Origin: Lentinus brumalis | Lineage: Eukaryota; Basidiomycota; Agaricomycetes; Polyporales; Polyporaceae | Assembly (NCBI GenBank): GCA_001792895.1 | Contig: MARA01000001.1 | Span: forward strand, 62,001 to 126,000 | Length of the DNA stretch: 64,000 nt | Direction of reading: 5' to 3' | Part shown: positions 1 through 33,414 of the stretch, piece by piece | Layout: every line of letters begins with the position of its first letter | Position numbering within the stretch: position 1 is the first letter of the stretch | Program-made: the position numbers and the translations under genes | The notes under the pieces: generated by a model | What the model was told of the DNA's origin: nothing | The model's input: only the letters and a program-made list of their open reading frames with translations | The model's database searches: none

Positions 1-130
1 CAGAAGCCAAGGCTTCTGAATCGTTCAAGTGCTCGACCATCGCGACGGGATCCATGCGAATCACGGCATAGCTATGCGTACGGGGACAGAACGGTGCCTC
101 AGAAGGAGCGGATACTGCATCGTCGGCCAT
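1..130 (-). CDS. Family B gene B0, first exon only (cut by window edge)
   Basis: The 5' end of a family B gene reading leftward out of the window. The ATG at 130 opens 43 visible codons that hold the start of the family N-box, 'YAVIRMDP' followed by 'MVEHL'. Paralogues continue with 'KKYLVYL' and a phase-0 intron, so about 25 nt of this exon lie outside the window. The gene is divergent from A1 and shares a 423-bp promoter with it, which makes it the first A/B pair. The short N-terminus before the box is unlike its paralogues, as is usual in this family. No biochemical function can be assigned. Confidence 0.75.
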   Translation of the reverse strand, partial: MADDAVSAPSEAPFCPRTHSYAVIRMDPVAMVEHLNDSEALAS

Positions 131-553
131 ACGAGCGGATAGTCGGTACAAGCTTCAAGTTAGAGAGTTGGACACCACCGAAGTTGCGGAGTGCTTCGCC
201 GGCGGATACACAGCAATGAGGGGGAGGGAAAAAGACCTTGGAGGACTTCAAGGCCTGAGCAAACGATGCACAAAAGAAAAAGGACCGACTTGATGGACGT
301 TGTTCTCATGATGATGCGTCGGCAACCGATGAAGGTCTTGTTAGGTGCCATCAACAATAAGCGCCCGTTCCTTGTCTTCTACGTTCACTCTAGTCCCAAT
401 CTGCCGACTCCAGCGCTACCATGGCAGCACGCTCCTTTTGTCTGTTGGACCTTTGTAGCTGAGCTCAGAACAACAAACTCGAGCTACCTCTAAAAGTCCC
501 ATCTGAATCACCGCGCTCGTCGCGCTCCGCGCTTCAACTTCCCCTCTGTCGCG
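131..553. promoter_or_regulatory. Divergent promoter of pair B0/A1
   Basis: A 423-bp intergenic stretch between two start codons that face away from each other. Both genes must be driven from here. I see no convincing TATA box. The A-rich stretch around 225-290 and the pyrimidine-rich tract before 554 fit fungal promoters. Unlike four of the other B promoters, it lacks the heptamer GTGGGCG. Confidence 0.6.
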
Positions 554-1588
554 ATGGATTCGTGCCAATGCTCTCACTCTCTCTATGTTGACACTCCTGT
601 CGCTCATTTACCTAATCATGCCTTATGTCCTGGCGACGTCTACTTCGTCAACGAGTCTATCTGTACTCCCATATACGACATCCTCCGGCAGCCCCAGTCA
701 AACTTAGAGCGCACACAATACATCCAGTCACAGCAATCATTCCACAGTATCTGCAGCAGAGATACTGCTACAAAGCACGAGAACGGGAGGCCGTGTATCG
801 TTATGCAGCACTATCGAGACCCCTTCACGCGGAGGATGTCACGCAAGGTCTGCCTTGTCACGACGTACAGCGGACGGCACATCTCCACGCTTCCGAAGAT
901 CTGCAAAGATTTCAGCGTACCCGTCTACCCGCACTACGCCATCACCCCCGACTCGGGGGACGATCACGTCCATTCGATGCCCCGATGGAGTAGGGAGAAT
1001 GCCTGGATTGTTGCGTGGATATTCACTACCAGCAGGCCGCTCATTCGCGCCTTGCGAGCCAGACGAGAGACAGGCCAACTGGGGGAAAACATCGCCTTTG
1101 GCGAGACCGCCATGGAATACATCTTGGAGACCTGCGAGAACTTGCGGGAGGAATGGTTCGACAAGTGCAAAAACCCGAAGTTCGCCGGTCCGTATAACAA
1201 GGAGTTCCACGTGAGTATGCGGTACCGCATCAGCACATATGGGATTTTGCGCTCACACTGTATACTTTCAGGCTCATCGGAAGGCCATCGAAGCAGCGGA
1301 GGCGGCGAGTAAGGTACAACTTCGTCTTCTCATTAATCCTTCAGCTCGCTCGTTGCTGAGATCGCCTGCAGTACTCCCTCGCTACAGAGGCAACCTATCG
1401 GACGACTCGGACACGTCACAGCGTGTACAAGGTACGTGTTTAGCGCACCGCTCAGAGACTCGGATCCCGCCGCTGACCAGCGTCATTGTTGTACCCCAGC
1501 CTACTATGCAGAACAGTCAGTATAAGTACTCCGTCTCACAAGCTAGGCATACTCACTGATATGTGCTCTGTCAGGGGCCGGCTACTAG
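554..1588 (+). CDS. Family A gene A1, unknown function
   Basis: Exon 1 (554-1210, 219 codons) carries the whole conserved A core: Cys4/Cys6 near the start, 'CPGDVYFVN' at about residue 25, 'RPCIVM' at about 79, 'LPKICKDFSVPVYPH' at about 111-125, 'HVHSMPRW' at about 137-144, and a Trp/Cys-containing end. The intron at 1211-1271 is in phase 0, at the same place as in A2-A4. Exon 2 (1272-1313) encodes 14 residues, the same length as A2 exon 2. Likely further exons are 1372-1431, 1500-1515 and 1575-1588, ending in TAG, but the last two are uncertain. The spacing of the first two Cys (CxC) differs from the CxxC of A2-A5. The partner is B0. I know no named family for it. Confidence 0.7.
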
Positions 1589-2575
1589 CTTATTCGTACG
1601 CGTGGTTGCCGAATCACGCTCTATATCCGCCCGGCGAGCCTTGGCCTCTTTGCAGTGTCATGGCTGGACCATACACGACCAATCACACGTTCCTTGTCGA
1701 CCGTCTGACATCTGTTGTATCTTGATATCAATCTCATGCAGCATAATCATGTCCGTCTCGTATCGACTGAGTCGTCTCCATAGTTAGACGTACACCGATA
1801 TCGCTCCCGCATGTGAGTAGGTGAAGCAATGGAGCTTACGACACGGTCCCATCCTGTCCCGGGGGACGTAAGACGTATGTTCGACCCGTCGACCGTTTAT
1901 CTTACCCCACTCAGAGTCTGGTCACCCGCGAGAACACGGTCATGCATTAGCTGCCTTGCAAATGGTCTACTGTACAATGGATGCGGTCGAATAGCGATAC
2001 ATGAGAATAGTCCCGAACGCTCGCGCATGTGGACGGTTCATGGACTCGCAGGATAGTACTAGTACATACTTGCCTCTACTCTCCTCGAGTCTATCTAAGT
2101 CAATCCGGCATGGCCTTTGCAAGGGCAAGGGCCGGTCGCCTCCTCAGATCTGGCCGGACATGTCAAAAACGCGGTGGGCGGCGGTGATCGTCACGCCTAG
2201 AAGCCGGTGTTGCGCCGCGGTTACCTTTCTTGTGACGGCGATTAGCGACCACATGCCACTGATCGTGTTCTTCGTCGGACTTGGAGCCAGCATGCGAAAC
2301 CTATCAGAACTCATGACTCTTCTGACGGTGAAGTAGACGAAGCAGTAAGACACTCACAGTCATAGCCGGGGGTTGCTGTCGCTTCGGAGAATTTCCGCGT
2401 TTCAAGGCGCCTGTGTCCATCTGCACGCAATGAGTTGACTAGGGCTGGACTTGAAACAAGGACACATACGTACGCTCAACAATATGGGACGGGAAGCCGC
2501 TCTCGAAGAAAGTGGACCCCCAAAATCCGACTCTCTAACGTAGTGTTCGGGGTGCTGATACTGAGGCTATTCGAG
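1589..2575. other. Intergenic, no gene recognised
   Basis: This stretch lies between the convergent 3' ends of A1 and B3. Open frames here are short and lack A or B motifs or a credible chain of splice sites. It is probably shared 3' flank. Confidence 0.4.
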
Positions 2576-3838
2576 TCAGTGAGTGTACCCGCCTTGTCCG
2601 GCCGTGTCGTCGATGTATCGCCGGGTGCTAGAGCTTCCTGGACAGATGACAATTGAGTGAGGCTTTGCAGCACAGTGAGGGTTCAGAACGATACTGACTG
2701 GTGTGTCCAAACCCTGAATGACAGACTGCACGCGTGAGTGATGTTGTCCGGAATTGGAAGTGTCCTCCTGGCGATTCAAGGGTACTGCCAGATGCGCAAG
2801 CTCGCCACTGCTGACTAGCTCCGCCTCTGAAACTAATCCGTTTGCCACAGCATGCCTCAGGAGCGCACGTTTGATGATCCTGCTTTTTTGTGTCAGTAGG
2901 TGCGAACTGAGCACAGCGGAAGTACGTACTCGACGGTATTGCGAATTTCTTCTTCCAGGTCAACAGGGTTTGGTATCTCGTCTTGCGCAAGGTGCTTATC
3001 GATATCGAGCCAGGCATCGACAAGAGGTAGAAGCGCAGTGGCGTAATCGCAGTTCCAGCCAAAGAGATCATCGTCGAACTGTGCGCTTCCATGACCATCT
3101 CCCCGAATTCGTTGCCGTAGCTTCCGAAAGGTATGGATGTCAGAAGCCCCCGTTGCTCGGCAATTTGGCGATACATTGCAGAGACTATAAGAGCTTTGAA
3201 TCTGTCGTGCTCACGGGGTACAGTGGCGGAGACTGATGATGTGGCGAACTCTCGCCTCCGTGTGCTCTCCGACTGCCGTCGTTCCTCCAGGGTTGCCATC
3301 ATGCGACGATACGCCTGCTGGAAGCGCTCTCCAAGCAGCGAATCTTCTCGTGAAGACAGAGAGATTGCATCGAGTTTGTTGTGACCTTCGTTGCGGACGC
3401 GGACTCGTACAGGTGTGTTGTTCCGGAACCAGTGATAGCAGTTCGAGAACGGGAAGGATGGTGTGGGGCGGACATATCCGCCGCGTACTTGTGCGTGTTG
3501 CTTGTTAGGGAAGATAGGAATGACCATATCACGAGTGATTCCTCGGACCCTATCTGGACGCCGCAGAGTAGTTCCGATGGGCATGACATCGTAGCGGCAC
3601 CATCTACTGGTCGGCATCGGAAGCTCTTCAGGCTGAAGGGAGAATGAGAGGAGATTTACTAAGATAACACTGGAGGTTGACTTACCCAGTCCAAGTAGAC
3701 GAGGTACTTCTTGGGAGCAATCGCACGAACCTCGGCCAGAGCCTCGGAGTCATCAAGACCTAGGTCCTTGAGCATCGTCGCTGGATCCATACGAATGACG
3801 GCGTAAGTAGATGGTGGTGGGAAGATGAGCAGACCCAT
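2576..3838 (-). pseudogene. Family B gene B3, apparent internal frameshift
   Basis: Exon 1 (3838-3686, 51 codons) has the N-box 'YAVIRMDPATMLKDL...KKYLVYLDW'; the phase-0 intron is 3685-3633. Exon 2 (3632-2930) has the core with 'RWCRY', 'GITRDMVIPI' and 'FPFSNCYHWF', and then the 'MYRQIAEQRGL' block. After this the conserved C-box ('DDDLFGWN...PLVDAWLDI..HL') continues in another frame near 3085-3105. I find no acceptable intron that would restore it without removing a conserved block, so an indel is likely. The phase-2 intron 2929-2880 and exon 3 (2879-2576, 'IIKRALLRHA') are normal, which suggests recent damage or a sequencing error. The gene is head-to-head with A2. The start at 3838 was chosen to match the short N-termini of paralogues; the frame stays open upstream to 4066. 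Confidence 0.7.
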
Positions 3839-4186
3839 TCTGAGGCGAAAGCACGCGTGAGGATATCGGAGGTCGAAAGTGTAGTAGGAGGAAGAAAGAG
3901 GACAACCTCCGAATCGCTCGCCTATTCCCCATATGAGCTTTGCGACTGTTTCGTACTGTGGGCGTCCCGGCGCCGATCGTGGGATGCCGGCCACGATGGT
4001 CGCCTTGCCGCGGGGCACCAGCATGGTACTTACACCAAGGCGCAGCGCCCGCTGTCGCCCACCCATCTTCGAATAATCATGTACTGTGCCGCCAGAACAG
4101 CGATACCGTGTGAGATCGTTACAGCCTCGGGGCTCTCATATAATGAATAGGCCCGCAGTCGCGCCCTCGTCTTTCTAGCTCTCCCC
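3839..4186. promoter_or_regulatory. Divergent promoter of pair B3/A2
   Basis: A 348-bp shared promoter, the shortest of the five. It holds the heptamer GTGGGCG at 3958-3964 (+) and at 4056-4062 (-), and an AT-rich 'CATATAATG' near 4136, about 45 bp before the A2 ATG, that may serve as a TATA element. Positions 3966-4053 are similar to 6367-6458 (see the repeat entry). Confidence 0.6.
3966..4053. repeat. Diverged repeat, copy 1 (copy 2 at 6367-6458)
   Basis: About 90 bp, roughly 70% alike by eye, with the shared block 'GCCGCGGGGCACCAG' in both. On the minus strand both copies read an open frame with 'LVPRGxAT' followed by 'GI.R..SP'. It may be a relic exon of a gene whose other copy lies at 6.2-7.4 kb, here left inside the B3/A2 promoter. 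Confidence 0.45.
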
Positions 4187-5823
4187 ATGTCCTACTTCGC
4201 CGTCACATCGCGACCTGTATTCCCGAATTCTCTGCCACAGCCGGCAGTCGACAAGGGGTGCCATGCCTGCAAAGATCCCTCATTCGAACCTATACGGTTC
4301 GACCGTGACCCAAAGACATACAATCCAGGCGACGTCCTCCTCATTGGCGATTCGGTCCATGCTCCGATCGACGTAGTCTTAGGGCTCACCCAACCCAACA
4401 GTCTCGACACAGCGAAGCCGGAAGGAAAATTGAGACCCGCTGTTCTCTGGGACGTCTGCAATCACGATCCTCCGACGGTCAGCTTGAATACCTCGTACAA
4501 GGATATCCACCACTATCGGTCCTTGCCTGTCATCTTGCGGGACCACTTCGCCATTCCCATGTCACCACACTGTGAGATATGTCCCGGCGACGACCATCTA
4601 CACACAGATCCGCAATGGCAGAAGTCGCATACGTGGGTCATCGCAATGAGGCATGCATCGAAGGCACAAATCGCCGGCCGATGGCTGTGGAGGCAGAACA
4701 CGGTGAAGATGCAACATCTTTCATTCGTTGTCGAGGCTACGGCGCTCGAAAAATTCAAGAGTGTATGCAACAAGAGGTGGCTCGCATGGACGGAGAAGTT
4801 GAAAGACGATCCGGAATATTTCTCCAGATGCCGCGACGAGTACCAGGTATGTCAACCTGCATGCGTACGCCGTCCGAGTTACCACTGAACGTTGTCATTA
4901 GATATTCAGGCGTCCAACGGAATGGCAAGGACACCTCGCAAAGGTACAGATTCTCCTCGTTACAGATGCTCGGATGTCCTGGTATATCGTTGCTAGCTAT
5001 CACGTCCGGTGGAAACGACCAGCCCCGTACCTCAGCCTCCAGGTCGGTACGCCGAGGCAGCCCGGCACGCCGTCAAGACTGCGTCAACAAGACATGAGCG
5101 ACTGGAAGTAAGCGCGTGGAGTACATGCTGAACGACGAACTCGCGCTGATTGAAGGCGCAGACCTCGCAGGGCAGCACGATCAACACCACTATCAGCGAA
5201 AGAAGGGAAGCGGCGACTGGTGTTGAAAAGGGCACCATGGAGAGAGCATCTCTATCCAGTTGGGTGCGTACAATGTTTCGCGCGACGTCACCCCTTCCGC
5301 CTACAACATGGTTCCGTCTCAGATGAGAGGCGCCGTTCCTGCGGAGCTCGTTGCCATCACAGCCAAGACCGGAGAAGTCATAGACGTAAGGGAAACTTCG
5401 CGCATCTCGACATTGAATGCAACCAATTGACGGCCCTTACTAAGGCTGTTCGAAACGGCGAAACAAAGGATGGAGCTGAAGCCGAATCGTCAACGGTACG
5501 CACCTTTCGCACTTGATACCATATTTGGTACAAACGTTGATGTCCTGGGTCTGCGGTAGCCCCCATCGGAGGGCGAGGATTGGACGATCGTGATGCCACG
5601 ACGACATGCAGGGCAGCGAGGTGGAGGCAATAGAGGTGTGGGAATGGGTGGTGGAAGTTCGAGAGGAGATGCAGATGTCCGACGAGGAAATGAGCGCGGC
5701 GGCACAGGCCCCGGAGCACCTGAGAAAGGTCAAACGCATGAAAGGAATCCCAGAGAAAGGAATGGACGAGGGCGAAGGGCGACTGGCCGTGCTTCACTTT
5801 CACACAGCGTTTATACTTCGTAG
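4187..5823 (+). CDS. Family A gene A2, unknown function
   Basis: Exon 1 (4187-4846, 220 codons) has the A core: 'CHACKD' (CxxC), 'NPGDVLLIGDSVHAPID', 'LRPAVLW', 'LPVILRDHFAIPMSPH' and 'HLHTDPQW'. The phase-0 intron is 4847-4901. Exon 2 (4902-4943) encodes 14 residues ending in Lys. Intron 4944-5035 is followed by exon 3 (5036-5107, 24 residues, parallel to A1 exon 3), again phase 0. Beyond this the splicing is not settled. Open blocks at about 5238-5383, 5460-5492 and 5562-5823 could join; the last in one frame gives an Arg/Gly-rich tail ending at 5823, while an overlapping frame stays open to 5911. The partner is B3. Exons 1-3 are firm and the end is not. Confidence 0.65.
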
Positions 5824-7444
5824 CACAGACGGAACACCCTATGTAGGTCCACGCAGAATCAGCGGAGAGAAGTCCACGTTCGCAAACCTAGAGCAGAAAG
5901 ACAGATGTTAATGAGCTGCAGATCGCGACATAACGAGTTGTGACAGACTTACGGCTTCGCTTCGATGACAGGGCGTGCCAAGTGTCATAGATATCACCGT
6001 TGTCGTCCGTCAACCCGCAGGGCAGCGGCTCACACAGGGCGGAAGCCATGAGATGCGTGCTCTGGCTTCCCAGATGATCCTGCAGACAGTTGTACAGTCA
6101 GCTGGGCGGCATCTGCACGACTCACACCGCACGACTCACCGCCTGACAGCGTCGATCTCCTCTAAGGACTCTAAAGGGCTCGTGATGTCTTCCTGCTTGA
6201 GGTGAGCTACCAGATCTAACCGTAGGTGGACGAGGGGCCGGAGCTCAATGTTGCTACTGCGATGTCCGAACATGCCCATCTCCGTCACGGTGTCGATAGG
6301 TTATAGGTGGAGTATGTAGGAGCGAATATTGATGTAGGCGTTCGTTTTCAGACAGCGAATCGCGTCCGGCGGGAGACGACACTCGTGATATGCCGGACAT
6401 GACGGTCGCATGGCCGCGGGGCACCAGGCATGCAAGATGGCGCAGCGCTCCTTGTTCGACCTGCTGGCGCATTCGTTAGGCGCTCGAGAGCAGCGAGACG
6501 TTGGTTCTCACTGCTAGCATCGAGGACAGCGATTCAGCGACTTTGTCGAGAAGTGAGTGAGGGGGAGGATGTCTTGAGAGAGAGTACGAATGTGAGCACG
6601 ATGTGCAGCCCGTAGGACGCAATATACGCACCGAGTATCGACCCTCCTTCCACTCCCCAAGCCAGTGCTCGAGGAGTCTTCGCCTCAACGATCTGATGAC
6701 CGAGATGTTCACCCGCCGAACAACCTGGAGAGACAGACAAGACTCACGTAGTGATTGTCGTAGTACGGGCAGTACTCCTCGCTCTCGTCCGTACTCCAGT
6801 ATGTCCTTCCGGAGCGCCGACTTGCATTCCGTAATGACAGAAGGCCATCTCGGTTATCTTCGCGACTGGCGAGCCGGTGGGACTACGTCTCCGTATGGCA
6901 TGGGCGTAGTCAGACCGGTGCTTGCAGCATGGCGAGCGGATCGCGCGTGTGGACAGCTTTCGAATTGAACGACGTTGAGCGCGACCTCGACTCCAAGACG
7001 CAGTGTGACCGCCGACTCACCACATACAGACTTATAGACTTCCGGAGAGCTGATGATTGCGCGTCCGCTGTGCGAAGGTGTCCGGTCGATCGAGGTCGCT
7101 GACGAGAATGACGGTGGCGGAGAAAAGCTTGAGCGCGCTGTCCTTGCCGTTCTCCTCCGTCCGAGTCTTCGCGGCCTCGCCTCGCCTCGCCTGCACCGTA
7201 GTCTGAGTCTCACGCACTCATCCTCTTGTCATTTCGTACGTTCCCAAACACGATGTCGGAGGTCGTCATGGCGTGAGGAGCAGGATTCATAGCCTCGCCG
7301 CGGAGCGTCCGAAGTCGTGATCTCGCTCGACATATCAGCGGCATCGGAGACGATTGCCCGCAAACTGCTCTTCCCTTCCCCCACCATCTTCGCCATTTCC
7401 CTCGCCTCGCGTGCGTTCGGGAACGCGTCCCAGGCACGCGGTGA
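5824..7444. other. Unresolved stretch with spliceable minus-strand fragments
   Basis: No complete gene can be built. On the minus strand, 6540-6740 reads a possible membrane segment ('WGVEGGSILGAYIASYGL') after an acceptor at about 6739. Positions 7032-7217 and 7260-7310 read further short open blocks ('FSATVILVSDLDRPD', 'TTSDIVFGNV'). These may be pieces of one decayed multi-spanning membrane protein gene, but this is weak. Confidence 0.3.
6367..6458. repeat. Diverged repeat, copy 2 (copy 1 at 3966-4053)
   Basis: This partner of the repeat in the B3/A2 promoter has the same minus-strand reading 'LVPRGHAT'. It lies next to other minus-strand coding-like fragments, so this copy is the more likely origin. 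Confidence 0.45.
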
Positions 7445-11097: not shown

Positions 11098-11413
11098 GTG
11101 GCGAAATACTCTTCGGTGCGGGTGTAACTGATAAGTAGACATTCTTCTCAACAGCCGTTGCCCGTATGTTGGAAACGACGATACGTTGATTGCTAGCCTA
11201 AATGTAATGCTTGATGCGGCCTCGTAGCGTTTCCCTTTTGACCATGGGCTTCCTCTGGTCTGCCTCTCACTCCCAAGGCATAGTGGTAACGGCGCAAGAT
11301 ATGGTTCACCACGTATAGCTCATGGAATCCGACGTATTCCAGAAAGCGAGGTCGGAACCAAACTGTCTGAGAACTTGAGGAGTGGATAAAAAGAAGCCTC
11401 ATCGAGAAAACAT

Positions 11414-11913: not shown

Positions 11914-13387
11914 TTACGCAGGCATCATCTCGCGGGCTGGTCTTCGCGCCGGCTGACTCGACGCCGCTCCAGCCTTCAACATTTGGGCATAGGTGGCTTT
12001 TGCCTTCGGCGGTACTGGTGCGGAGGGGCTCGTGGTTCCAACGAGCTCTGCAGCCTGAGATGCGAACGGTTTAAAAGTGAGTTCCCTCGCTCCGGGCTTG
12101 CTACACGTGACGGTGTGATGATCGTCGAAAGGCATAAGTACGTACCTCAGGCTTGGTGAGGATCTGAGCTGTCACCGGTGGGACACGCCCCGAGGACGAG
12201 GCGGCGCCGGCGGCAACGGATTGGGGCTTTGAGTTCAAGTTGTCATTGGCCACGCCGCCCAGCGGCGTGCTTCCGAGGTTGTCCTTCTTTGCAGACGCAG
12301 CGCTCTGATCTGTGAGTGGCCTCGCGAGCGATGGGTGTGCGAAGCTGATGGGCTTCTTCTGTAACATATTGATCGGAGGATCGCAGTGCTTAACATGCTG
12401 CTTGTGCTCCTATCCGAGGTTTCGTCACTCGTGTCTGTGCGATGACTATTCTCCATACATCAGACGCACCGTTGCGAGTGTTCGAGACGTCGACACTTTC
12501 TGAGCGATCGGAGTGGTGTTCTGCCACGGGTTCTGCTTGAGGGGAACCTGTCTCCAAAAGTTGGTCGTCTGACTCTGCATGCACACAGACGATGCGCTTA
12601 CCGGCATTCCGGTCTTCTTCCTGTAGTCGAAGAGTTCATTGCTGAACATCTGCAGAGAGGTTGAGCGGTCGTATACTGCGTTTACTGGAAGAAGCGATAG
12701 ATCACTCACCATATAGTCCTCGACGCACTTCGCCAAAGTCTCCGGGTCGGACTGACATGTTTGCGTCCATTCTTTCCAGGAGTCTCGGATGACATGTCTG
12801 AGGTCCGTTTGGTACTCCTCTTCGATGGTGAACGATGAGCAGGACCAGGGATGGACCCTATCCACATTCTTCCAATGTCCCCGCTCTGCCAGGTAACCCT
12901 CGAAGGGATATTCTCGGGCAATGAGCCATGCATTGGTTTCTTTCTTCCAAGATGAGTGCGTCCACTCGGGTCTAGTATGAAGATGCCACCTGAGAGGCTC
13001 TCCAGCGATCGTTGCGTGCCGGTATATCGCGACGCCGAAGCGCTGCAGAATCAGCGGCAGGTTCCGTCGTTGCTCGTACTGTCCCCAGTATGTAGCTGTG
13101 AGTAGGACCCGCGTGCGTACCGGCTCCTCGTTGGTGGGGAATAACTCCCCACTATCCAGTGCAAAAGCCGGCCGACCCTTGAAGTCTGTGTCGTCTAAAG
13201 AACGCTTCTCGAACACGTCTACCGTCGTCCCCTCGGGTCGGACCGTCCTGTTGAAAATCTCTTGCTCCACGGGATTATGGGCAGAGTCGATAACCGCCAG
13301 AGTATCGAACGGTGAGAACGTCGTTTTGCCGCCAGAGGGGAAGTATTCGTCGTCGATGGGACGTGCACACCGCCTGCAGTTGCTCAT
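11914..13387 (-). CDS. Family A gene A3, unknown function (best-resolved A model)
   Basis: Five exons, all junctions in phase 0: 13387-12710, 12649-12602, 12547-12470, 12358-12146 and 12054-11914, giving 385 aa. Exon 1 holds the core: 'CRRCARP' at residues 4-10, 'TLAVIDSAHNPVE', 'GRPAFAL', 'LPLILQRFGVAIYRH', 'LHTRPEW' and a closing Trp/Cys region. The other exons encode a low-complexity Ala/Pro/Ser/Lys tail that ends with 'ATYAQMLKAG' about 20 residues before the stop; similar motifs end A4, B14, B16 and B31. Introns are 54-111 nt with clean borders. It is head-to-head with B14 over 409 bp. Confidence 0.85.
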
Positions 13388-13796
13388 GTTAGAGGGACGA
13401 TGTCGGGGGAAAGGGACGACTCGCGATACCCTCCCATGTGGAGGCTCTTATCCCAGCCCACTGTGATTCTGAATCAATCAGCACACGCTTTCCAGGTACA
13501 CAGGCTTCCCCGGCGTGACTGTTGTACTTCTCTCCATGCATTCAGGCGAACCGCCCACGGGGCGGTGAGTGGGAGAGTTCGCCCACAATGCCAAATACGT
13601 CCCAAACAGTGCAGCCACAGCGCGTATATCATAGGTCTCAGGGCATCCCCAGGGAATGCTCTCCTCGTTCCTTCCAATATCGCTAGTCTACCTGCGTGCT
13701 CTTGCTTGCAGCTGAAAACTGACCCGCTATCGTTTCATTCGCTACCGACGTTGCAACCGACACACCTGTATCTGCCGACGCCTCTGACTAGTCACC
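13388..13796. promoter_or_regulatory. Divergent promoter of pair A3/B14
   Basis: A 409-bp shared promoter. GTGGGCG occurs twice on the minus strand (13552-13558 and 13580-13586). The segment at about 13560-13640, with 'CAGTGCAGCCACAGC', is repeated upstream of B16 at about 15765-15835, which shows that the promoter was copied along with the B gene. Confidence 0.6.
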
Positions 13797-15519
13797 ATGG
13801 GACCAGCTACGGCGCTCGAGATGGGGCCGCCCAAGAAGATATCTGCGAATAGGAAAAACGATTTGCGTCCACAGCGGAAGATAACTGTTCTTCCTACAGG
13901 ACAACAGTTTGCTGTGGTTCGCATGGATCCGTTGGCGATGGTGTTGCATCTCAATCTGGACTCTGTCGCAATTGAAGAAGCGACAGCGATGAAACCGAAG
14001 AAGTACTTGGTGTACGTCGACTCCGTACGTCCTTCCTTTGTGCATTCCGGCCTCTGGTTCTGAATATACTGCAGCCACAGGATCTCCCTTTTCCTCAGAG
14101 TCAGTGGTGTCGCTACTGGGTTGAGCCAGTTGCAACGACTCTACGACCTGCCGTCCCCGAGAAGGGCATCACCTCGGACATGGTCTTGCCCATCCATCCC
14201 AACACCCAGTATGCTAAAGGACGACAACCTGTCGTCTGCACTCCTCAATTCCCTTTCCCTGACTGCTACTTCTGGATCAAGAGCACCATGTCCCTGCGTG
14301 TGCGGACGAAGCGGGGAGCATACGTCTACGACAACGACAAAGCGATGACGGTCAGTACTCGGCAGCACGTCGCCTTCATGAGCGCCTGGAATGAGGACTC
14401 TCGTCGTATGTTTGCTCTACGACGGGCGTACTCTCCCAGCCCCAGTGGGCCGACTCCAGTGTCAGACCGGGAGGGACGCGATTCCCCGCCTCCTCAACTG
14501 GTGCAGCGGCCCGGTGATCACCTCCCTTCATCTGCCACACCCTTGAGCCCGCCACCTCTTCGTTTGTACCGTCAAGAGAGCACCTCCTCGGACGATGAGG
14601 AGTCTTCAGCGTCTCAGACGTCGGTTGATGTCGAGGCTGCAACTGCACCGACCCTCCCGCCCGTTCCGCCACTTATGGAGATGGCAATCGACATGGACGT
14701 CTTCGGGTGGGCTGCCGATCCGAAGGTGCCCTTCATTCCACTAGTTGACCTCTGGTTTGAACTCGAGGATCATCTCTCGCGGGACGATATACCTAGTCCC
14801 ACGGAACTTTGGAGGGAACAAGAGACGATCGGCAGGTAAGTGCTCAACGAAGGGTATTCGCACAAGGCGCAACTGACACATTATGTGTACCGCAGCATCA
14901 TCGAAGCAGCGTTGAAGAGACGGGCCACCGCCACAGCCCCGCCGCAAGCGCCACCTCCGCCGCATGGCGATTCTCAGAAGTCACAACGGCCAGCTGTATT
15001 ACCTCCACATGCGACTGATCAGTCCTCGCGACCCGGGCCAAGTTCTGAAGTTCACAGCAGTACGAGTCAGGGCGACGAGGCGACCCACAATTGCGTCCAC
15101 TCGACGCCTCCGCCTTCGTCCATACGTATCCTACCAGAACCCTCGCGTCCTATGCCAACACCGATGCCTGATGGCGGACTCAAGGAAGAGGGGCAGGTAA
15201 CGCCAGCGACCAGTTTTGCCAGTCTCTTGCAGTCCGCGAAGCCCCTGGGGCACCACGTAGCTTCATGGGGCTTCCGTTCACCGCTCAGTTCTTCTCCGCG
15301 TCATGCGCCTGCACCCCGTTCGGACTTTAGGCCGCAGTTGTCCACGGCACCACGATTGGTCGCGGGGAATCCTGGCACGGGTCGGCTACGAGCAAGTGCG
15401 TATGCTCTCTTGCTGAAGATATTCCTGGGCTGACATAGTGCTGCACCACAGATGAGTCCATCCGTCGGCATAAGGCTGATCTGTTAACGGGAATAAGCCA
15501 CCGCACCTCATCCAAGTAG
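13797..15519 (+). CDS. Family B gene B14, unknown function
   Basis: Exons 13797-14024, 14075-14835, 14896-15395 and 15452-15519 give 518 aa. The N-box is 'QFAVVRMDPLAMV...KKYLVYVDS' (residues ~36-76), preceded by a basic Lys/Arg-rich leader. The core (~77-160) has 'QWCRYWVEP', 'GITSDMVLPIHPN', 'FPFPDCYFWI' and 'RVRTKRG'. A Ser/Pro linker is followed by the C-box 'VFGWAADP...PLVDLWFELEDHL' (~300-325). Exon 3 opens with the family tail start 'IIEAALKRR', is otherwise disordered, and holds 'TSFASLLQSAK' and 'SWGFRSPL'. The protein ends in 'RTSSK'. Introns fall at the family positions, phases 0 and 2. It pairs with A3 and is a close tandem paralogue of B16. Confidence 0.85.
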
Positions 15520-20956: not shown

Positions 20957-22356
20957 TCAACGGAGTCTGGCCGTTCTGTTGCGGCGAGTCAGTGGCAGGA
21001 AAAAAGGGCTACTGAGATGTGACGAACCTTTTCGCTTCATGGGTGCCGTTGAGTCCAACTGCTCGCTGCCACTCCTCTGACCATCTTCACGTGGAATTGG
21101 CAGCTCGTGTTGGGTCGTCGCTACGATGTGGTCGCGATGTGGATGGGATTCAACCGCTATTGCAGCATCACTGCGAAGTCCTGGCCCTGCCGTAGAAAGG
21201 AGCGGCGATGCACCAGACGCCTGGGCACCAATGTCCATAGAGTGCGTCAGGGCATCATCTCCTGTGGCGGCGAAGGAGTTACACGGGGCAGCGAAACGAC
21301 CTGATTTGATCATTCTTCTTAATGATCGTTCGATGATGCTGCGCGAAGTATGAGTCCGAACAGCGGCCACATGAGTACGAAGCGTAGACTCACCTTTTCA
21401 CCGCTTCCTGCTCCTCGTAGAACTCGAGTGGACTGGGAATGTTATCCTCCTCAAGGTGGTCTTGCAACTCGAACCACAGGTCGACGAGCGGAAGGAACAA
21501 GGTCTTGGGATCAGGGTCCCATCCGAACAGGTTGCAGCGACGGAGATCGGAGAGTGAAGACGAGGCGCTGCAGTCGCTGCAGTCGTCAGGAGACTCGAAG
21601 TGAGGCTCTAACCTGGTTCTGCTACGAGCGGATCCTCCCTCCGAGTCAGAAGAGATGGATGGGGACGGAAGGCAATCCGCAGAGGATGACGGGGAGCCCT
21701 GATACAACCCATGCTCAAGAGAACGGGCGGTCTGCCCGTCCTCTCGATTCGTTGCCACGTCCTCTGGGTGCGTGGCGTTGTATTCCTCGATGATCTGGAT
21801 CATGCGGGGGTCCTCGTCGTCCCAGCACGATAGCAGATCGCAGTGATCGTCCGAAGTCAGCTTCGTCGCCCGTGAGTCGTCGTACCCCTCCTTCCTAACC
21901 TTCACACGCAGTAGAATCATGCTATCCATCCAGAAGAAACAATTGTTGAACGGGAAAGATGGTTGTGGGGTGAGTGCGGGACGTCCTCTCAAGTGCTGAG
22001 TGTTCGGAGCTATAGGCATTACCATGTCTGGGGCTATCCCTTGCCGTGGGTCTGCCGGTCGCAGAGTCGACGCTACGGGGTCTGTGCCGTATCGGCACCA
22101 AGGGCTCGTGGGGGAGGGGAGATCCATAGGCTTGAATGAGGTTCGTCAATGCTACGATTGTATCTTATTTGAACTGACTTACCGTGCTCAGATACATCAG
22201 ATACTTCTTCGGCTTCATCGCCCTAGCCTCTGCCAAAGCCTGCGGGTCTTGCAGAGGCTGGACCATGGCGATGGGGTCTATCCGCAATACTGCAAATTGG
22301 TTTGGCATTGGAAATGGCAGATTGAAAGGCACGTCTCGGTAGCTAGGTATGAACAT
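20957..22356 (-). CDS. Family B gene B22, unknown function (no A partner)
   Basis: Exons 22356-22183, 22130-21394 and 21338-20957 give 430 aa. The N-box is 'QFAVLRIDPIAMVQPLQDP...KKYLMYLST'. The core has 'PWCRYGTDPVASTLRP', 'GIAPDMVMPIAPN', 'FPFNNCFFWM' and 'RVKVRKEGYDD'. The linker is Ser/Asp-rich. The C-box is 'NLFGWDPDPKTLFLPLVDLWFEL' and the tail starts 'IIERSLRRM'. Introns 22182-22131 (phase 0) and 21393-21339 (phase 2) are at the family positions. It is closest to B28 within the window by N-box wording ('VQPLQDP' and 'VEPLKDP'). The tail lacks the [ST]YA motif in this model, so a last exon may be missing. Confidence 0.8.
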
Positions 22357-23769: not shown

Positions 23770-25072
23770 TCAATTCTGGTGTGAGAAGCACGTTGCAATC
23801 GGAGCGCTTACTTGAGTAGCACTGGCGCTCGGGAGGTTATCTGTCCCTGCAGAGTTCGGGCCTGCCTTGCTCTCGGACGTTGACGATACTGGCACAGCCT
23901 TGCGCTCCTGCTTGGGGATGTCGGCCGATCGTTGAGCGAGAGCGTAGCGGGCCAGTCCGCGTCGCATGACCCTAGTTGCCATGTATGTGAGCGGACGAAT
24001 GGACGACGTAGAAAACCACTTACGATCGGATGGCTCCCACCTCCTCGTACAACTCCAATGGACTCGGTATCTCCTCCTGAGTGAGGTGATTCGCTATGTC
24101 CAGCCATAAGTCCGCGAGTGGCAACAGAGGTGTCTCCGGGTCGGGGCTCCAGCCGAACACGTCGATCGAACCGAAGGGATTATGCGCATGATCGGAGACC
24201 GAAGTACCCGTTGAGAATGCGGATATATCGGACTCGGAGCTTGCACAAGAAGTTCCTGCCGAGGCGGTATCGGACGAAACGGAAGTAGATGACGCTGCTT
24301 TGAGGCGGATGGTGTTAGTACGGGTTGGAAGTGAAATAGGACGAGCGGTTTCGTTCGGAGGAACAGATGTCATGAGTCGTCGTATGGATGCCAGATGCCA
24401 GCATGTGGCGGAAACGACTTCCAACGGGACGCAGTCAACCTCATCCGTATCACGACCACGTGGACATAACGGGAGCGGTGTCGCTGATGGAGACTCTGGT
24501 CGATTATCTTGAAGTTCGGGATGCTTCGCCACAAACTCGACGGTGCGGTGGAAGTCGTCATCGAATCCCTCTTCTAAGGCCATTTCCTGGTCCGATGATA
24601 GGTTGATAGCTCCCTCGTGTTCGAATCCTATATCAGGTGTCCGCACCCGTATGCGCACAGGGTCACTCTCGAACCAATGTACACAGTTGGAGAATGGGAA
24701 GGAAGGATCCGGGTGTAAGGTCCTACGGCCACGTATCGAGTTGGGTGCGATCGGAAGGACCATATCAGAAGTGATACCTGTCTTGGCGACGGGTGGACGA
24801 GGAGTAGTAGCAATCGCCGTCACAACGTAACGGCACCACCTGCTGTACGGCATTGGGAGTTCGTCAGGCTGTGAAAGTGGTCAGGAGGGATACTGGAATA
24901 GACTATGTCATCAACGCACGCAATCCAAGTAGATCAGGTATTTCTTGGGATGAATCTTGGAGACCTCCTCCAAGGTCGCGGCATCATCAATCCCAAGATC
25001 TCGTACCATGCTTTGTGGATCAAATCGAATGACGGCGTAATGAGCTGGTGCCGGTGCTTGAAGCACGACCAT
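23770..25072 (-). CDS. Family B gene B24, unknown function
   Basis: Exons 25072-24920 (51 codons), 24868-24024 and 23971-23770 give about 399 aa. The N-box is 'HYAVIRFDPQSMVRDLGI...KKYLIYLDC'. The core has 'RWCRYVVTAIATT', 'GITSDMVLPIAPN', 'FPFSNCVHWF' and 'RIRVRTP'. A long Ser/Thr-rich linker leads to the C-box 'DVFGWSPDPETPLLPLADLWLDI' and the tail start 'VMRRGLARYALAQR', like B35, B38 and B41. Introns are in phases 0 and 2. A good donor (GTAAGC) at 23811 means that the last 14 residues read here could be intron and a further exon may lie downstream. It is head-to-head with A4. Confidence 0.8.
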
Positions 25073-25479
25073 GGCGAAGCCACGGGGACTGGGAACGATG
25101 TTTGTCTCGGGCAAGCGTGCTTTGGGAATGGCGAGCACTGCACAGCGACAGTGGACGCGGCGGAAGGAGGGGATTAGGAGAAAGCAGCGCCCGCGCAGCG
25201 GACTGCTAAGTATCGTCACCATTGTTTTCGCGTGTTAGGATATGTGGGCGGTTTAGCGCCGTGCCCCGTCCAGCCCGCGGGGCCGCTGGAGGCGCTGCAA
25301 AACCACACACCATCTGCATGGGCGCGCCCTAGCTCTGATAGCTCCCACCAGGCACCTCATGTAGCGGGTGTTGTATCTCACGCATTGAGCGGTCGCATCA
25401 TGAATGCCTTAAGTATGGCCGGGCCAAGCACGGACTTCAAGTCACGATCACCCACTCTTGCACTCTGACCCTTACCCCC
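25073..25479. promoter_or_regulatory. Divergent promoter of pair B24/A4
   Basis: A 407-bp shared promoter. It holds TGTTAGGATATGTGGGCGG (25233-25251), containing GTGGGCG at 25244-25250. A similar string, TGTTAGGTTATGTGGCAG, lies 241 bp upstream of the B41 start. Confidence 0.6.
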
Positions 25480-26964
25480 ATGGCCCCCGTTGCTCTCAAA
25501 GACTCTGCCTGCTTACACTGTACTCAGCCGAGTACTCAGCTATATTCTGTTGACGGCAAGAATTTCTTTCGCGGGGATATCGTCCAACTTCACGAAAGCG
25601 TTCATGCACCCATCCTCGCTGCTCTGGCGGACCCAAACAACAATCCTGCCGAGTCTACCTACAGCACGGGTAGCTATGACTCTTGCGTTACCTTAAATGG
25701 GAGGGTGAGACCCGCGCTCATGTGGAAGGGTATGCGACTACCAAGGGAGAGCCGATTTGTGCGGACTTCTCTGTGCACCACGTACAACAGTACATTCTAT
25801 CTCCGCAACATGCCTATCATACTTAGGGACCATTTCGCTGTCCCTATCTCTCCACACTGCGAGATCCGGGCTCAGGGACACCATCTGCATACTTCCCCCG
25901 AGTGGCAGAGGGATCACGCGTGGTTCATAGCCGTCGGCTTCCATTCGTCCGGCAGGGTGAAAGGTCACTGGAAATATCGAGACGAAACGGGCGAGCAACA
26001 GTCCAACCTTTCCTTTAAGGTGGAACCACGCAGCATCGGAGCCATCAACGAAATTTGCCGGCGGAGATGGCGGGCCTGGGGCGAACAGTGCAGAACCGAT
26101 CCGGCCTACTTAGTCTGGTGCCGATGGGAATATGAGGTGAGTGCGACGCTTCATCTGTCCGTGAATCAGGAGTCAATCCCCAGAAGATGTTCATGGATCC
26201 TGATCCCGATAAGTCTCGATGGAAGAGCTATCTCAAGGTCCCTCACACTTCCCCTGTTTTCCTTATCAAGCATGCTAACTCGTCTGTAAGTGGCGGGAAT
26301 CTCAACCTGATACGATGGACCTGTGGCTATCCGCAGGAATAAATGCATCACAGGACGCAAGAGATGAGCTTACGGTGAGTACATCACAGCACCGGAGCTC
26401 TCGGCATTGTTGGCGTGCTTCCTCACATTGATGTCCTGCGTAGGGCAATGCATATGACTCCCGCAGCTCGCACGATGGAGGAGCGGCATCAATCACAGAG
26501 GACAAAGAGCCTAAGGGTATAAGGAAAACAGGAAACGTCTGGGCAAGTCGGCCGTTGGTCAAACTTGCCATTCAAGCGCCTCGCATTGACGCAGGGCGTT
26601 GTTTCAGACCACCGTCGCAGGAATACCGAGTCCTCCCCTATCACAGCTCTGCAACGTAAGTCAAGCATTACGTACTTCGATCCCACATCCGCCATGCTAA
26701 TCAGAGGCACATAGGGCCCTCATGCGAACGGCGTCGATGTCAAGTTGCCACACGCCGCCGTGGAAGCGGTCACATTCCCAGCAGACATTCTGCCTGTACG
26801 ACACTTCTCCCTCTCTCTCTTTTCTACTCGAGCTCATGCGTTGCAAGCCTCGTCCAACTTCTCAAATTGCTCAGGGAAGGTCGTATGCTGCAGCCGTCAC
26901 GAACGATACATCGCAAGATGTCGTACGTAGCCCCGACGTTCCGACTCCATTCGTCACAATTTGA
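25480..26964 (+). CDS. Family A gene A4, unknown function
   Basis: Exon 1 (25480-26136, 219 codons) has 'CLHCTQP', 'RGDIVQLHESVHAPI', 'VRPALMW', 'LRNMPIILRDHFAVPISPH', 'HLHTSPEW' and an end rich in Trp and Cys. Exon 2 (26184-26237, 18 residues) and exon 3 (26291-26374, 28 residues) follow with phase-0 introns. An exon from 26444 is open to 26655. The last part, with possible exons at about 26717-26797 and 26852-26964, reads 'GRSYAAAVTND' close to the stop at 26964, the same tail motif as in A3. The exact joins after 26655 are not resolved because the phases do not fit simply. The A core is most like A2. The partner is B24. Confidence 0.7.
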
Positions 26965-27596: not shown

Positions 27597-28806
27597 TCAA
27601 TGCGACGGCTTTCCGCTGACATCTCCACACCTGCAGCTGTCTCCGACTCCGCCACAATGCAGGCAAGGACCTCCGCGACCTGAGCTTCCTTCCTGAGAAT
27701 GAATCAGCTTGGGGAAAGACGTCGACGGGACCGGAAGTGTCTGGGTGCACTGTGAAGAGTCCTGCACCGATCGTCTCTGGAGGGCTGCTATCATAATCCT
27801 GGTATGTCATGAGTCTACGTTAGGCCGAGCAAATGAGGAACCCAAGGACGACTTACAGCGCAATCGCTGCCTGCTCCTCGTAGAAGTCAACGGGACTGGG
27901 TATCTCCGCCGCGCTCAGGTGCTCTTCAAGGTCGAGCCACAGATCGACCAGTGGAAGAAACATCTCCTTGGGATCACGGTCCCACCCAAAAGGGTTCAGT
28001 GCGAAGAGCTGCTTGAGCTCCGCCAGATGGTCTGACGCTGCTGTCAAGCTTAGATGGTCGTCACCGTCATATTGGGTGTTTCCTAGATGAACGTCCGTTT
28101 CGTCGTCGTCGTCGTCGTGGTCCTGAAATTGGTGCCCGGGTGGCGGTATATAGTATGAGGGTGTGATGATGGGGGAGGGTAGCCCGCGCAAGATCGCTGA
28201 CGGAGGAGATGCAGAATGTCCCGCTTCCGCGTACTCCAAGTAAGACTCCATAGGTTCGAAGTCATTTGACCAACACCTCGATACGGCGAGGTGCTCTCGA
28301 GCGCCAACCGTTATGGCTTTTCCGCCGTCATAACCGGCCGGGTTGACCTTCACGCAGACCGACATTTTATTCTCTATCCAGAAGAAGCAGTTGTCGTAGG
28401 GGAACTTAGGACTTGCTTTAATGGGGTCGCGGCCTCTGAGGTGCTCGGTATTGGGATGAATAGGCATGACCATGTCCGGCGTGACACCGTTCTCCACGTC
28501 AGCCGGCCTGAGACAGGTGGCGACCGGCTTCACCGAGTAGCGACATTCCTTACTTTTCGGCATAGGCAGGTCTCTAGGCTGCAAATGAGACTTCAGTGGG
28601 TGCCGGAAACATGGATGTATCACAGAGAGGGTACTCACCGCCTCGAGGAAAACGAGGTACTTTTTACACTGCATGGACCTCGCTGCTTCAAGAGCGACTG
28701 GATCTTTCAACGGTTCGACCATCGCGAGGGGATCGATCCGTATCACCGCAAACTGCAATGCGTCGGGGAACAGGAGCTGTTGGTTCATGAGCGACGGATA
28801 GACCAT
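27597..28806 (-). CDS. Family B gene B28, unknown function (no A partner)
   Basis: Exons 28806-28639, 28578-27857 and 27798-27597 give about 363 aa. The N-box is 'QFAVIRIDPLAMVEPLKDP...KKYLVFLEA'. The core has 'ECRYSVKPVATCLRP', 'GVTPDMVMPIHPN', 'FPYDNCFFWI' and 'CVKVNPAGYD'. The linker carries a run of Asp coded by a GTC repeat on the plus strand (about 28099-28116). The C-box is 'NPFGWDRDPKEMFLPLVDLWLDLEEHL' and the tail start is 'LIMIAALQRRS'. The first intron (28638-28579) is in frame, so it can be mistaken for coding sequence. An in-frame ATG lies 12 codons further upstream at 28842. The conserved Trp of 'WCRY' is Glu here. Confidence 0.8.
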
Positions 28807-29201: not shown

Positions 29202-30899
29202 CTCAGTTTCGCGGCGGTCGCTGCTGCCCCGCGCCCGCGCCTCTCCCCGCCTGCTTCTTGCCTCGGACTACAGCCTGCGCACACGACGGTCGCGCAGGTG
29301 ACCGATTCTGTGCAACCTGTGGCGTCTATTGGAATAAAGGTCAAAACATGCGCATCCCGTGGCAATCGCCGGATATAAACTCACGGGGGCGAGATCTGGA
29401 GACTCCGAGGCTGGAGGCGTCAGAGCGCTCCCATTTGCCACTTGGTGTGCACTCGTTGGTGCCGAGGTCCCGGGGCCGCGAATCGCAGTTGGTCGGCTCT
29501 GTGCAGTCTGGGGCATCTGATACGGTCAGAGAACAAACAATCTACGTATTGCAGTCACAGGATAAACTCACAGCGGGCAGACTCGGGAAGTCCGAGGCGG
29601 GAAGAGGCCCCGTAGTGGACGGCAGAGCGCTCCCATTGGCCACTCGTGGCGCAGCCGGTCGAGACCAGGCCGATTGCGGCGCGGACTTCCCAGGCACGGT
29701 AGAAGAACCTGCGGCGACGGGGACGTTTGCAGGAACGGAGGAAGTAGGAGGTGAAGATGGCTTGGCAGCGGGTCGTGCGCTCCCGTTACCAGCGTGCACT
29801 ATTGGCATCGGCGCGTTCGTGGTGCTCTGTACCGGCGCACCTCGGGCTCCGTGTGCCAAGGTGTTGGCTGGATTGCGAGTTGCCGACGTCGCCCAGGGTG
29901 TCAGTGGGCTTGGTAATGGTACACCACGATCAATCTGGCTCAGATGTTAACACAGCAAGTTCATTCGTGACGACCAAAGGAAAATGCGTACGGGAGATGT
30001 GATTGAAGGCGATCTCGCTGACGGAGTGGCGTTGCGTGTTCTCGAGGGCTGCGAGGCGAGTCTGAATTAGGAGATCACAGCATGAACGCTCAAATTCGGC
30101 TCACCGAGGAAGGGTTATAATGATGCAACTTGTTGCGGAAATCCTGTCAACAACCACACAAAAGAGGTCAACACAAAGACTCGGTGAGTGTCAATTTCGA
30201 TTTTTTCCGACTCACACTGTAATCGTTCCTGTACGTGTACAAACGCTGTGGGTCTTGTTCGCAACTCGCGACCCACTCATCCCACTTCTCTTCGACGATC
30301 TCGAGCAGCTTCATGCGCGTCTCGTGATCAATCGTGAAAGACGACTCCGAGTCCCAGCTGCTTCGATTGGCGTTCTTCCACCGACCCTTTGTGGGCTTCG
30401 TGGATGTGAACTGGCGGGCGATTAGCCAACCGTGGAGATCAGTCGCGTCCTTCTTTGAATGAGACCACTCCGGAGATGTGTGCAAATGAAAGACTCCCGC
30501 TTCGTCCTCCGCGATCGTGCTGTGTGGGTATACCGCGATGCAGAAGAACTGGAGGACGAGAGGCAGATGGCTCCGGAGGCGGTAGTCGCCTTCGTACGTT
30601 GCTAGGAGCAGTACGACCGTTTCCTCCGATCCGTCTGGCGATTCAATCGGTCGGTGCTCGAGCACGATGGCAGGACGTCCGCCTCGACCGTTGTCAAGCC
30701 AAACGCGCGAGCCATTGCTGAGGTTCGAACCTCTGCGAGAGCTCGCGTCACGGTGCCGGTTGTTGAGGACGTGGTGGAAGATAGGGACATGGACAGAGTC
30801 TTGGATGGCGATGATGTCGCCGGGATTGTACGTGTCGCAGTCGGCGTCTGGGATGTGCTCTTCGTTCACCAAAGCTTGGCAGCGAGAGCAATTGGCCAT
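29202..30899 (-). CDS. Family A gene A5, unknown function
   Basis: Exon 1 (30899 to about 30216) has 'CSRCQAL', 'NPGDIIAIQDSVHVPIF', 'GRPAIVL', 'LPLVLQFFCIAVYPH', 'FHLHTSPEW' and a closing region with 'W..W...C'. One or two small exons lie between 30144 and 30000, but their phases are ambiguous. Then come a long Ala/Pro/Ser-rich exon (to about 29570), a similar shorter exon (about 29516-29388) and a last exon ending at the TGA 29204-29202, which reads 'RPSCAQAVVRGKK' and a basic Gly/Arg end. The two middle exons are tandem duplicates of each other (shared 'VANGSAL'). It is head-to-head with B31. Confidence 0.7.
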
Positions 30900-31379
30900 G
30901 ACAGATAGGATTGCGATGCGGAGAGATTGGAACAGTCACGGACTCATGAGTTGAGAATCAGGAGGGGAGACAGGAAGTCGAGTGCATGCTCGCCGACTCG
31001 GATGAACATACAATGAGTCAATGCCGAGGACAAAGAATGCCGTAATAGTCGGGCGAAGAAGCAGATGAGAAGGCGGCCCTTCCCGTGTCGAACATGTGGA
31101 CCACGTGGTCGCGCTGGTGGGCGTCGGGCGAGTCGACCGGCGACCATGCGTCCCTATCGTCCTCGCATCTTCTGTAGGGATGCTGGAGGTTCGTATGAAG
31201 GTGTGAGCTGTAGCAGTACTTACGACGAAGTGATGTCGTGGCAAGTCGCAGGAACTCGATCAAGTTCGTGGGAATATGCTGCTGCTGCCTTATGGGCGCC
31301 CTTACCGCATAGCCATCGTGGCTTCCAACCACCACCATCTCTAACACACCTGGTTGCTCGGGCCTTCTTGCCGACTTCG
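30900..31379. promoter_or_regulatory. Divergent promoter of pair A5/B31
   Basis: A 480-bp shared promoter, the longest of the five, with GTGGGCG at 31117-31123 (+). The frame continuous with B31 exon 1 is open back to 31065, but paralogues place the start at 31380. Confidence 0.6.
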
Positions 31380-33414
31380 ATGTCAATGAAGGTGTCTTCG
31401 TTCCCGAAAGCAAGACGCTTCGCGGTGGTCCGCATGGACCCAGTCGCGATGGTGGAACATCTACAGGATCCACTAGCGACGGGGGCGGCCAAGGAGATGC
31501 GTACGCAGAAGTACTTAGTGTACTTAGATTTTGTGAGTGTCATCATGTCTCGTCTATGCTGTTGTCTGACAATTTTGCAGCCTCAGGATCTCCCTATGCC
31601 AGACAGCGAATACTGCCGGTATCGTGTCAACGTGGTCGCCACAGAACTACGTCCGGCCGTCCCAGAAAAGGGAATCTCAAGGGACATGGTGATCCCTATC
31701 CATCCCAACACCCAACATGCTCGAGCTGGTGCGAAGGTCACAGTTACCCCCGCCTTCCCCTTCTCGAACTGCTACTTTTGGATTGACGGACGTCTGTCTC
31801 TTCGTGTTCGCGTCAGTCGCGACCGCAGATACGACAACGACAAGGCGTATCAGCTCAGCATTCCGCAACATGTCTCTCTCTCCGACGCTTTTGAGCACGA
31901 CTTTGCTCGTATCAACCGCTTCTGGCGCGAGAGGCATACCGTGTACGCTGAGGAGCACATTGTCGAGGTTTCTAGCTTGACAACATTCGGGGAACCTGAT
32001 GACGTCTTATTCGCGGCCATGTCCTCTTCCTTCTACACCGAAGAGTCTGCCTTGGCCGAAGAGTTCGACTCTTCTCCCGACTTCAGCCACGAAAGAGACT
32101 CTTCTCCGAGCAGCACGCCGCCTGTTCCTCCATCTATCACAGATCTTCTGTCGATGAACCTCTTCGGGTGGGACGAGGACCCGAGCTTCCAGTTCATCCC
32201 ACTCGTCGACCTCTGGCTGGACCTTGACGAACATCTCACCGAAAGCTCTATACCAAACCCGGTAGGTTTGTGGAAAGAGCAGGAGAAGGTTGGCTTGTGA
32301 GTTTTCGTCCACTGTCATACCCGGGACCGCGTGTACTGAAACTCTCTCAGGATCATCAAGGACTCGCTGGAGAGGAGTCTCGTCTCGTTGAGCCGCACCG
32401 ACCACAGCCGTCCTCTGGACGATCCGGGTGTTTCCGGCAGACATGTCTCGAAGTCACAGTCGAGAGGACGTAGTGAGCGCCGACCGGTGCAGAAAAGCCC
32501 GTCGGTGACTGTCACTCAGAGGTGCGAACCTCTGATACTGTTCAATGAGAGCATACTGATGTCCTCCGAGCAGTAAACCCGTGTCTGCGCTCGCACCAAC
32601 GCGTCCCCCACCATCTACCATCACACAAGACTACCGCAGCTGGTTGGGTGACATCCGCCACCATGATGCGGTCGCCCTTGCAACACCGCCTGCGGAGGAA
32701 ACGCTGCACGGTGTAGCATCTGTGCGCTCTCCTGAAAGCCGTGCCGCTGATGCCTCACCCGCGCCGACGTATTCGACCCACGCCACCTCCATGACGCCGC
32801 CTGCCTCCTATGCGAGCCTGCTCAAGGATGCCGGTGCACCTGCGCCTCGTCCTTCCGGCGGCTTGAGAGCGGCGGTGTGGCCAACGCAGCATCCGTCTCC
32901 CCTCCTGGAGATGGCAGCTTCGACGTCACTCCGCCAAGGTCGGTCACGGAAGCGAGCCGTCAAGGACGGACGACGGGCTGAGGACCGCGAGCGCACAGGA
33001 CGACCTCAGCGGGGCCGTGGCTCACGCTCTTCGCAAAGCGGTACAGGCCCAAGTTCACGCTCGAACACGGTCGTCCACTCCTACTCGTTCTCGTACGTGC
33101 AGGAGACCGTCATCCAGGGAAGCATACGCCACCATGATCCGTGTACGAGCCCCGAGGACGGCCGGCTGCCCGCGAAGGAGCGTCCTGTTCCGAGTCAGAG
33201 CAGGGGCAGCGGGATGAAGGGCCGTCCGACTTCGAGCCGCACGGACCCAGCCTCTGACAACTCGCGGGAGCTCGCGCGGTTCATGACGGGTGTGCGGCTT
33301 TCGGGGAAGATGAGCCACTTGACGGCTTTCCGTGCCGACGATCTACACGCTGGGAAGAATGTTACTGGGCGTCCGTCGGCGTCGGCGAACGCGAGGCGTG
33401 GCAGGGCTGCTTAA
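31380..33414 (+). CDS. Family B gene B31, unknown function
   Basis: Exons 31380-31532 (51 codons), 31581-32296, 32351-32521 and 32574-33414 give about 626 aa, the longest B model. The N-box is 'RFAVVRMDPVAMVEHLQDP...QKYLVYLDF'. The core has 'EYCRYRVNVVATELRP', 'GISRDMVIPIHPN', 'FPFSNCYFWI' and 'RVRVSRDRRYDNDKA'. The C-box is 'NLFGWDEDPSFQFIPLVDLWLDLDEHL' and the tail start is 'IIKDSLERSL'. The last exon is disordered, carries 'PASYASLLKDAG' at about residue 445, and then an Arg/Ser-rich end. Introns are in phases 0, 2 and 2. A further intron inside the last exon is possible. It pairs with A5. Confidence 0.8.

Follow-up and report, generated by a model that had tools for sequence, protein, structure and literature searches.

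The window, i.e. the whole stretch of 64,000 nucleotides analysed here, corresponds to C1:62001-126000 of the Lentinus brumalis assembly (53.4 Mb in 136 contigs). It contains genes of two families, A and B. All five A genes of the window start opposite a B gene in divergent orientation, with A on the plus strand in three pairs and on the minus strand in two. Gaps between starts, measured from the in-frame ATG nearest to each conserved core, range from 348 to 486 bp. This agrees, in both orientations, with the preliminary description of the locus, according to which five A genes start 348-480 bp from a divergent B gene; the largest gap becomes 480 bp when the alternative ATG of its B gene is used. 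The features are listed below in window positions, together with the number of matched columns in A (205 columns) or B (285 columns) profiles.

1..130, minus: first part of B0, paired with A1; profile match C1:61201-62088, 274/285 columns, extending beyond the window to C1:61201; ATG at 130
131..553, no strand: B0/A1 start-to-start stretch, presumed two-way promoter; 423 bp
554..1210, plus: A1 exon 1, predicted barrel domain; 200/205 A columns; ATG at 554
2941..3838, minus: B3, paired with A2; 236/285 B columns; ATG at 3838
3839..4186, no strand: B3/A2 start-to-start stretch; 348 bp
4187..4846, plus: A2 exon 1; 184/205 A columns; ATG at 4187
6145..6297, minus: B fragment, C-terminal part only; 51/285 B columns
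12710..13387, minus: A3 exon 1, paired with B14; 201/205 A columns; ATG at 13387
13388..13820, no strand: A3/B14 start-to-start stretch; 433 bp
13821..14830, plus: B14, paired with A3, two exons; 284/285 B columns; ATG at 13821, another at 13797
16163..17078, plus: B16, solo B; 284/285 B columns; no A upstream
21399..22314, minus: B21, solo B; 284/285 B columns; no A upstream
24029..25072, minus: B24, paired with A4; 282/285 B columns; ATG at 25072
25073..25479, no strand: B24/A4 start-to-start stretch; 407 bp
25480..26136, plus: A4 exon 1; 196/205 A columns; ATG at 25480
27862..28770, minus: B27, solo B; 280/285 B columns; no A upstream
29206..30899, minus: A5; exon 1 about 30216-30899, 205/205 A columns; low-complexity tail exon region 29206-30054, matched by relative P0051
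30900..31385, no strand: A5/B31 start-to-start stretch; 486 bp
31380..32291, plus: B31, paired with A5, two exons; 285/285 B columns; ATG at 31386 or 31380
33992..34945, minus: B34, solo B just past the pair region; 284/285 B columns; no A upstream
37776..38752, minus: B38, solo B; 283/285 B columns; duplicate of the paired B at C1:147.6k without its A
40282..41227, minus: B40, solo B; 257/285 B columns; no A upstream

In a search for a promoter motif common to the intergenic stretches, 7- to 10-mers were no more widespread than in shuffles. A short motif in the tails, which named relatives had led us to suspect, was found in one of 13 A and five of 36 B downstream stretches, versus none and two, respectively, on the other strand, and was dropped. 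A 45-base repeat (84% identical) occurs at 3977-4021, within the B3/A2 intergenic stretch, and at 6383-6427. The second copy is located upstream of the B fragment at 6145-6297, at a distance of 86 bases, and this fragment looks like what is left of a decayed pair.

Outside the A and B genes, the window harbours an LTR retrotransposon (44689-50716). Its minus-strand frame of 1784 aa, which carries reverse transcriptase, RNase H, integrase zinc-binding and chromo domains, lies between two direct repeats of 267 bases that are 100% identical. Identity of its ends suggests recent insertion. Another minus-strand frame (57369-58316) carries Uso1/p115 vesicle-tether head domain, and two 71-base direct repeats (53389-53459 and 55441-55511, 72% identical) are located 2052 bases apart.

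Distribution of both families in the genome was determined by profile searches of fetched stretches, along with six single-protein queries against the whole assembly. The query proteins were A5 and A1, one Trametes relative and three copies on C98 and C71 that are deeply diverged. Thirteen near-complete A genes, defined by at least 150 of 205 columns, and one fragment were detected; nine of the 13 are located on C1, three on C98 and one on C71. Among the telomere repeats listed, which begin with contig C4, none is on C1. Each whole-assembly query recovered 7 to 13 of these genes and otherwise the fragment alone; such searches score best candidates only, and very diverged A genes could escape them. 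A divergent B core is found 431-643 bp from A in all 13 cases, with ATG gaps of 348-594 bp across the pairs. Near-complete A is thus in 13 of 13 cases part of an adjacent two-gene module, as in type II toxin-antitoxin systems, though a divergent one, and no near-complete A without B was found in this genome. The only A sequence lacking an adjoining B is the fragment (C1:38380-38556, 58/205 columns), which is decayed. Two of the paired A copies (C1:53479-53967 and C1:48445-49061) have a frame that is broken or departs from the family, so that some pairs may carry a dead A.

B is more numerous. Fetched stretches contain 43 B matches, 36 of which cover at least 200 of 285 columns; 13 of these are paired and 23 solo. 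Further matches outside the 36 lie at C71:37-43k, C71:1.16 Mb, C1:1.48 Mb, C64 and C115, in stretches that were not fetched. When up to 2 kb upstream of the 36 B genes were scanned with relaxed settings, A was detected at 13/13 paired genes and at 0/23 solo ones.

Distances between A proteins were compared with those between their partner B proteins. The two sets are strongly correlated (Mantel r = 0.892 over 13 pairs), a value that was not reached in any of 20,000 permutations (null mean 0.00, sd 0.12). The A fragment (one of 14 matches) and seven of the 43 B matches, with fewer than 200 columns, were left out of this comparison. A and B trees, compared by eye, largely group the same pairs, and solo B genes are dispersed among paired ones. 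The pairs are deeply diverged, with A identities down to 15%. B38 and the paired B at C1:147.6k are 90.5% identical in DNA over approximately 1.66 kb; the duplicated stretch comprises the B gene and little of the intergenic stretch, with the A gene excluded. Rough estimates for these two copies (dN 0.026 versus dS 0.099, in a stretch that includes a short in-frame intron) suggest that B is under some constraint. Co-divergence of the pairs, together with the B-only copy, indicates that the unit duplicates as a pair and that B is also able to multiply by itself. That a two-gene unit was co-duplicated repeatedly had been proposed from the window, on the understanding that a genome in which most A genes do not lie beside B would speak against it. 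The co-divergence upholds the proposal, and in this one genome 13/13 A genes adjoin B.

We wondered if A and B are themselves related. They were originally described as having no core motif in common, which holds for plain sequence but not at profile level: comparison of both profiles aligned 50 columns (E 0.0021, probability 13.5%), and none of 300 shuffles scored as high. Untrimmed alignments matched in an overlapping region (probability 4.7%). When single B sequences were compared with the A profile, the best six of 36 beat all 101 decoys, their alignments starting at A columns 91-115. Thirteen of the 36 lay above the 95% mark of the decoys (expectation about two), B sequences not being independent of each other. 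The converse comparison of the B profile with 13 A sequences was weak (2/13 above the mark). In our reading, strand order in A and B models fits the profile register. Since the profiles align and both models are similar to the same MazF-type barrel, A and B are probably ancient paralogues.

Models of both proteins consist of a predicted barrel with C-terminal helices. Their structural match to MazF, a comparison of SH3-like barrels, is middling. CcdB, CptIN and AbiQ are listed along with MazF for A, and CcdB and CptIN for B, always with lower Z; these toxins belong to the MazF fold group, and their likeness to A and B is one of structure comparison only. The Foldseek list for A includes BAH-domain barrels as well. 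In a second structure comparison of A, two BAH or other unrelated matches rank below the MazF group.

Sequence profiles point in the same direction for A. Its profile aligns with a profile of eight bacterial MazF/PemK proteins over 28 columns (E about 0.001, probability 18-22%), a region that spans the Arg-Pro strand through the strand ending in Thr. This score was matched by 0/300 column-shuffled MazF profiles, and the reversed profile scored lower, too. Single MazF sequences gave weaker results. Of 101 decoys (E. coli reading frames), no more than 14 scored as high against A as the MazF sequence in seven of the eight comparisons; no MazF sequence beat all decoys, and six of those seven align to A at the Arg-Pro site. 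No alignment with MazF was obtained for B: 208 of 300 shuffles scored as high, as did 40 to 94 of the 101 decoys.

Key catalytic residues of MazF are described as Arg25 and Thr48, with Lys and Ser at those sites in two relatives (PMC7354611). The corresponding columns of A were counted in 28 sequences (all 15 external hits plus the 13 genes of this genome). Arg is present in 28/28 and Pro in 27/28, and the next site is occupied by Thr in 18 and Ser in nine, with one gap. At the sequence level, A thus appears to retain the catalytic Arg and Thr/Ser. Four other columns of A (His, His, Pro and Trp) are invariant in 28/28 each and unmatched to MazF. In B, with columns equated by eye, the Arg-equivalent is Lys in 42 and Arg in five of 68 sequences, and the Thr-equivalent is Thr in 48, Ser in three and Pro in 18 of 75; by this equivalence the combination of catalytic Arg and Thr/Ser is mostly not kept in B. 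It is likely that A and B are both MazF-type barrels derived from one ancestor, A with an active-site signature. B contains a second conserved block (IPLVDLW...IPSP, residues 237-290 of P0001), which lies after a disordered linker and for which model confidence is high; its role is not accounted for by the MazF comparison.

Searches against known families were performed with both proteins. Pfam returned chance-level matches only for 19 A and 39 B sequences (best E 0.014, none PemK) and likewise for eight window frames. NCBIfam, scanned with A alone, gave two chance-level matches, and PADLOC gave no match for five proteins. The statement of the preliminary description that no described family has these blocks therefore stands for Pfam (A and B), NCBIfam (A only) and PADLOC (five proteins). 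PF02452 had no match over cut-off in the genome, while three control genomes gave matches. Sequence search of solved structures retrieved nothing for A and one match at E 0.46 for B, and the B model had none at E 0.001 in a viral structure library. No account of basidiomycete MazF- or PemK-like proteins or of A/B pairs was found in open-licence literature searched by title and abstract.

Homologs do occur in other fungi. A single-sequence search identified 44 B and five A relatives, and an alignment search 15 A relatives. B31 has its closest match in a protein of Lentinus brumalis (95% identity). Named relatives come from Lentinus, Polyporus, Cerioporus, Trametes, Cubamyces, Lenzites, Earliella, Daedaleopsis, Fomes and Ganoderma, all of which we take to be polypores. 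Identities of the best A5 and B31 relatives are near each other, at 78 and 68% in Lentinus tigrinus, 56 and 52% in Fomes, and 52 and 53% in Daedaleopsis, respectively. Listing on equal-sized contigs suggests that A and B relatives are linked in Fomes, in Daedaleopsis and on one contig of 8,004 bases; best A and best B of Lentinus tigrinus are listed with different longest contigs. Most named relatives carry the source label "hypothetical protein". For one B relative (P0037) the source gives aspartic protease, a name that nothing in our analysis supports.

Among known systems, PemK/MazF type II toxins (PF02452) share with the A/B pair the predicted fold (a barrel plus C-terminal helices), Arg-Pro and Thr sites in the case of A, and organization as a two-gene unit. 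Unlike them, A and B are without PF02452 match and, as fungal genes with introns, have roughly double the length; a second barrel takes the place of AbrB-type MazE as partner, and the genes are arranged head to head, not in an operon. Since the PF02452 model was tested and does not match, we do not assign the pair to this family; it may work like a MazF-fold pair. HD1/HD2 homeodomain pairs of Agaricomycete mating-type loci are similar to A/B in being divergently transcribed and in consisting of two gene types. HD1 and HD2 products are described to heterodimerise, and extra and remnant single copies occur (PMC8305134). We do not regard A/B as such a pair: no homeodomain match was obtained for 19 A and 39 B sequences, and the only homeodomain match over cut-off in the genome lies at C1:2730165, approximately 2.5 Mb from the C1 cluster.

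In the explanation that we tentatively prefer, and to which we give slightly less than an even chance, A and B are anciently diverged PemK/MazF-like barrel families, whose divergent pair is duplicated as a unit and works as a heteromer. A and B would be co-expressed from the shared stretch of 0.35-0.6 kb, and their products would join in a heteromer, probably a pseudo-dimer resembling that of MazF. A would bind or cut RNA, and B would complete, aim or restrain that site. Because the families are restricted to polypores and clustered, with fragments and strong divergence, the pair may be used in a conflict setting, e.g. in defence or self/non-self. Of toxin/antidote, receptor/ligand and subunit pairs, the options considered at the outset, a subunit pair fits best.

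It might be argued that A is an intracellular RNase poison neutralised by B, its active-site-less paralogue, with the pair spreading or persisting as a selfish, killer or incompatibility element. Because A carries the MazF active-site signature, this deserves a place among the explanations, and expansion of the genes is lineage-limited. Occurrence of B without A, but not of near-complete A without B, is as expected were A alone harmful; the same distribution fits an A subunit dependent on B. On the other hand, B has no Pfam match and thus belongs to no known type of antitoxin, an antidote has no need to stand alone as 23 of 36 B genes do, and the pairs look old, kept through deep divergence, rather than mobile. 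We consider a poison with its antidote unlikely, and place the subunit pair ahead of it since B keeps the scaffold of A like a dimer partner and no antitoxin-type domain was found.

About as probable is a non-catalytic pair, in which both SH3-type barrels would act as a regulator by binding RNA, DNA or protein, Arg and Thr of A having a structural role. BAH-domain barrels in the Foldseek list, the middling fold match and the four invariant residues of A unmatched to MazF are in favour of such a regulator, whereas the columns aligned with MazF are exactly the catalytic ones, invariant or Thr/Ser, and BAH or unrelated structures rank below the MazF group. Still less probable is passive linkage by common promoter and segmental duplication, with products that do not work together: joint duplication by itself would yield co-divergence and no conserved intergenic motif was found, but solo A genes would then also be expected, and near-complete A is never away from B in 13 deeply diverged pairs, one decayed fragment being the only A without B, yet B has been copied without A.

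A more far-reaching reading, which we regard as a long shot, would be a eukaryotic MazF-fold system with A as RNA-cleaving barrel and B as active-site-less paralogue pairing with it. Such divergent pairs would form a polypore-expanded recognition or antiviral arsenal, silent when A and B are matched and cutting RNA when triggered or mismatched.

It is unusual for genes without assigned function to stay strictly paired in 13 copies that have diverged deeply, and this gives experimenters ready partners. The MazF-like barrel has been described from bacteria (PMC7180214, PMC7354611). If our reading of the fold is true, this barrel enters a large fungal gene family, with a paralogue in the place of the antitoxin. 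The co-diverged pairs represent a natural set for asking how two-subunit specificity evolves.
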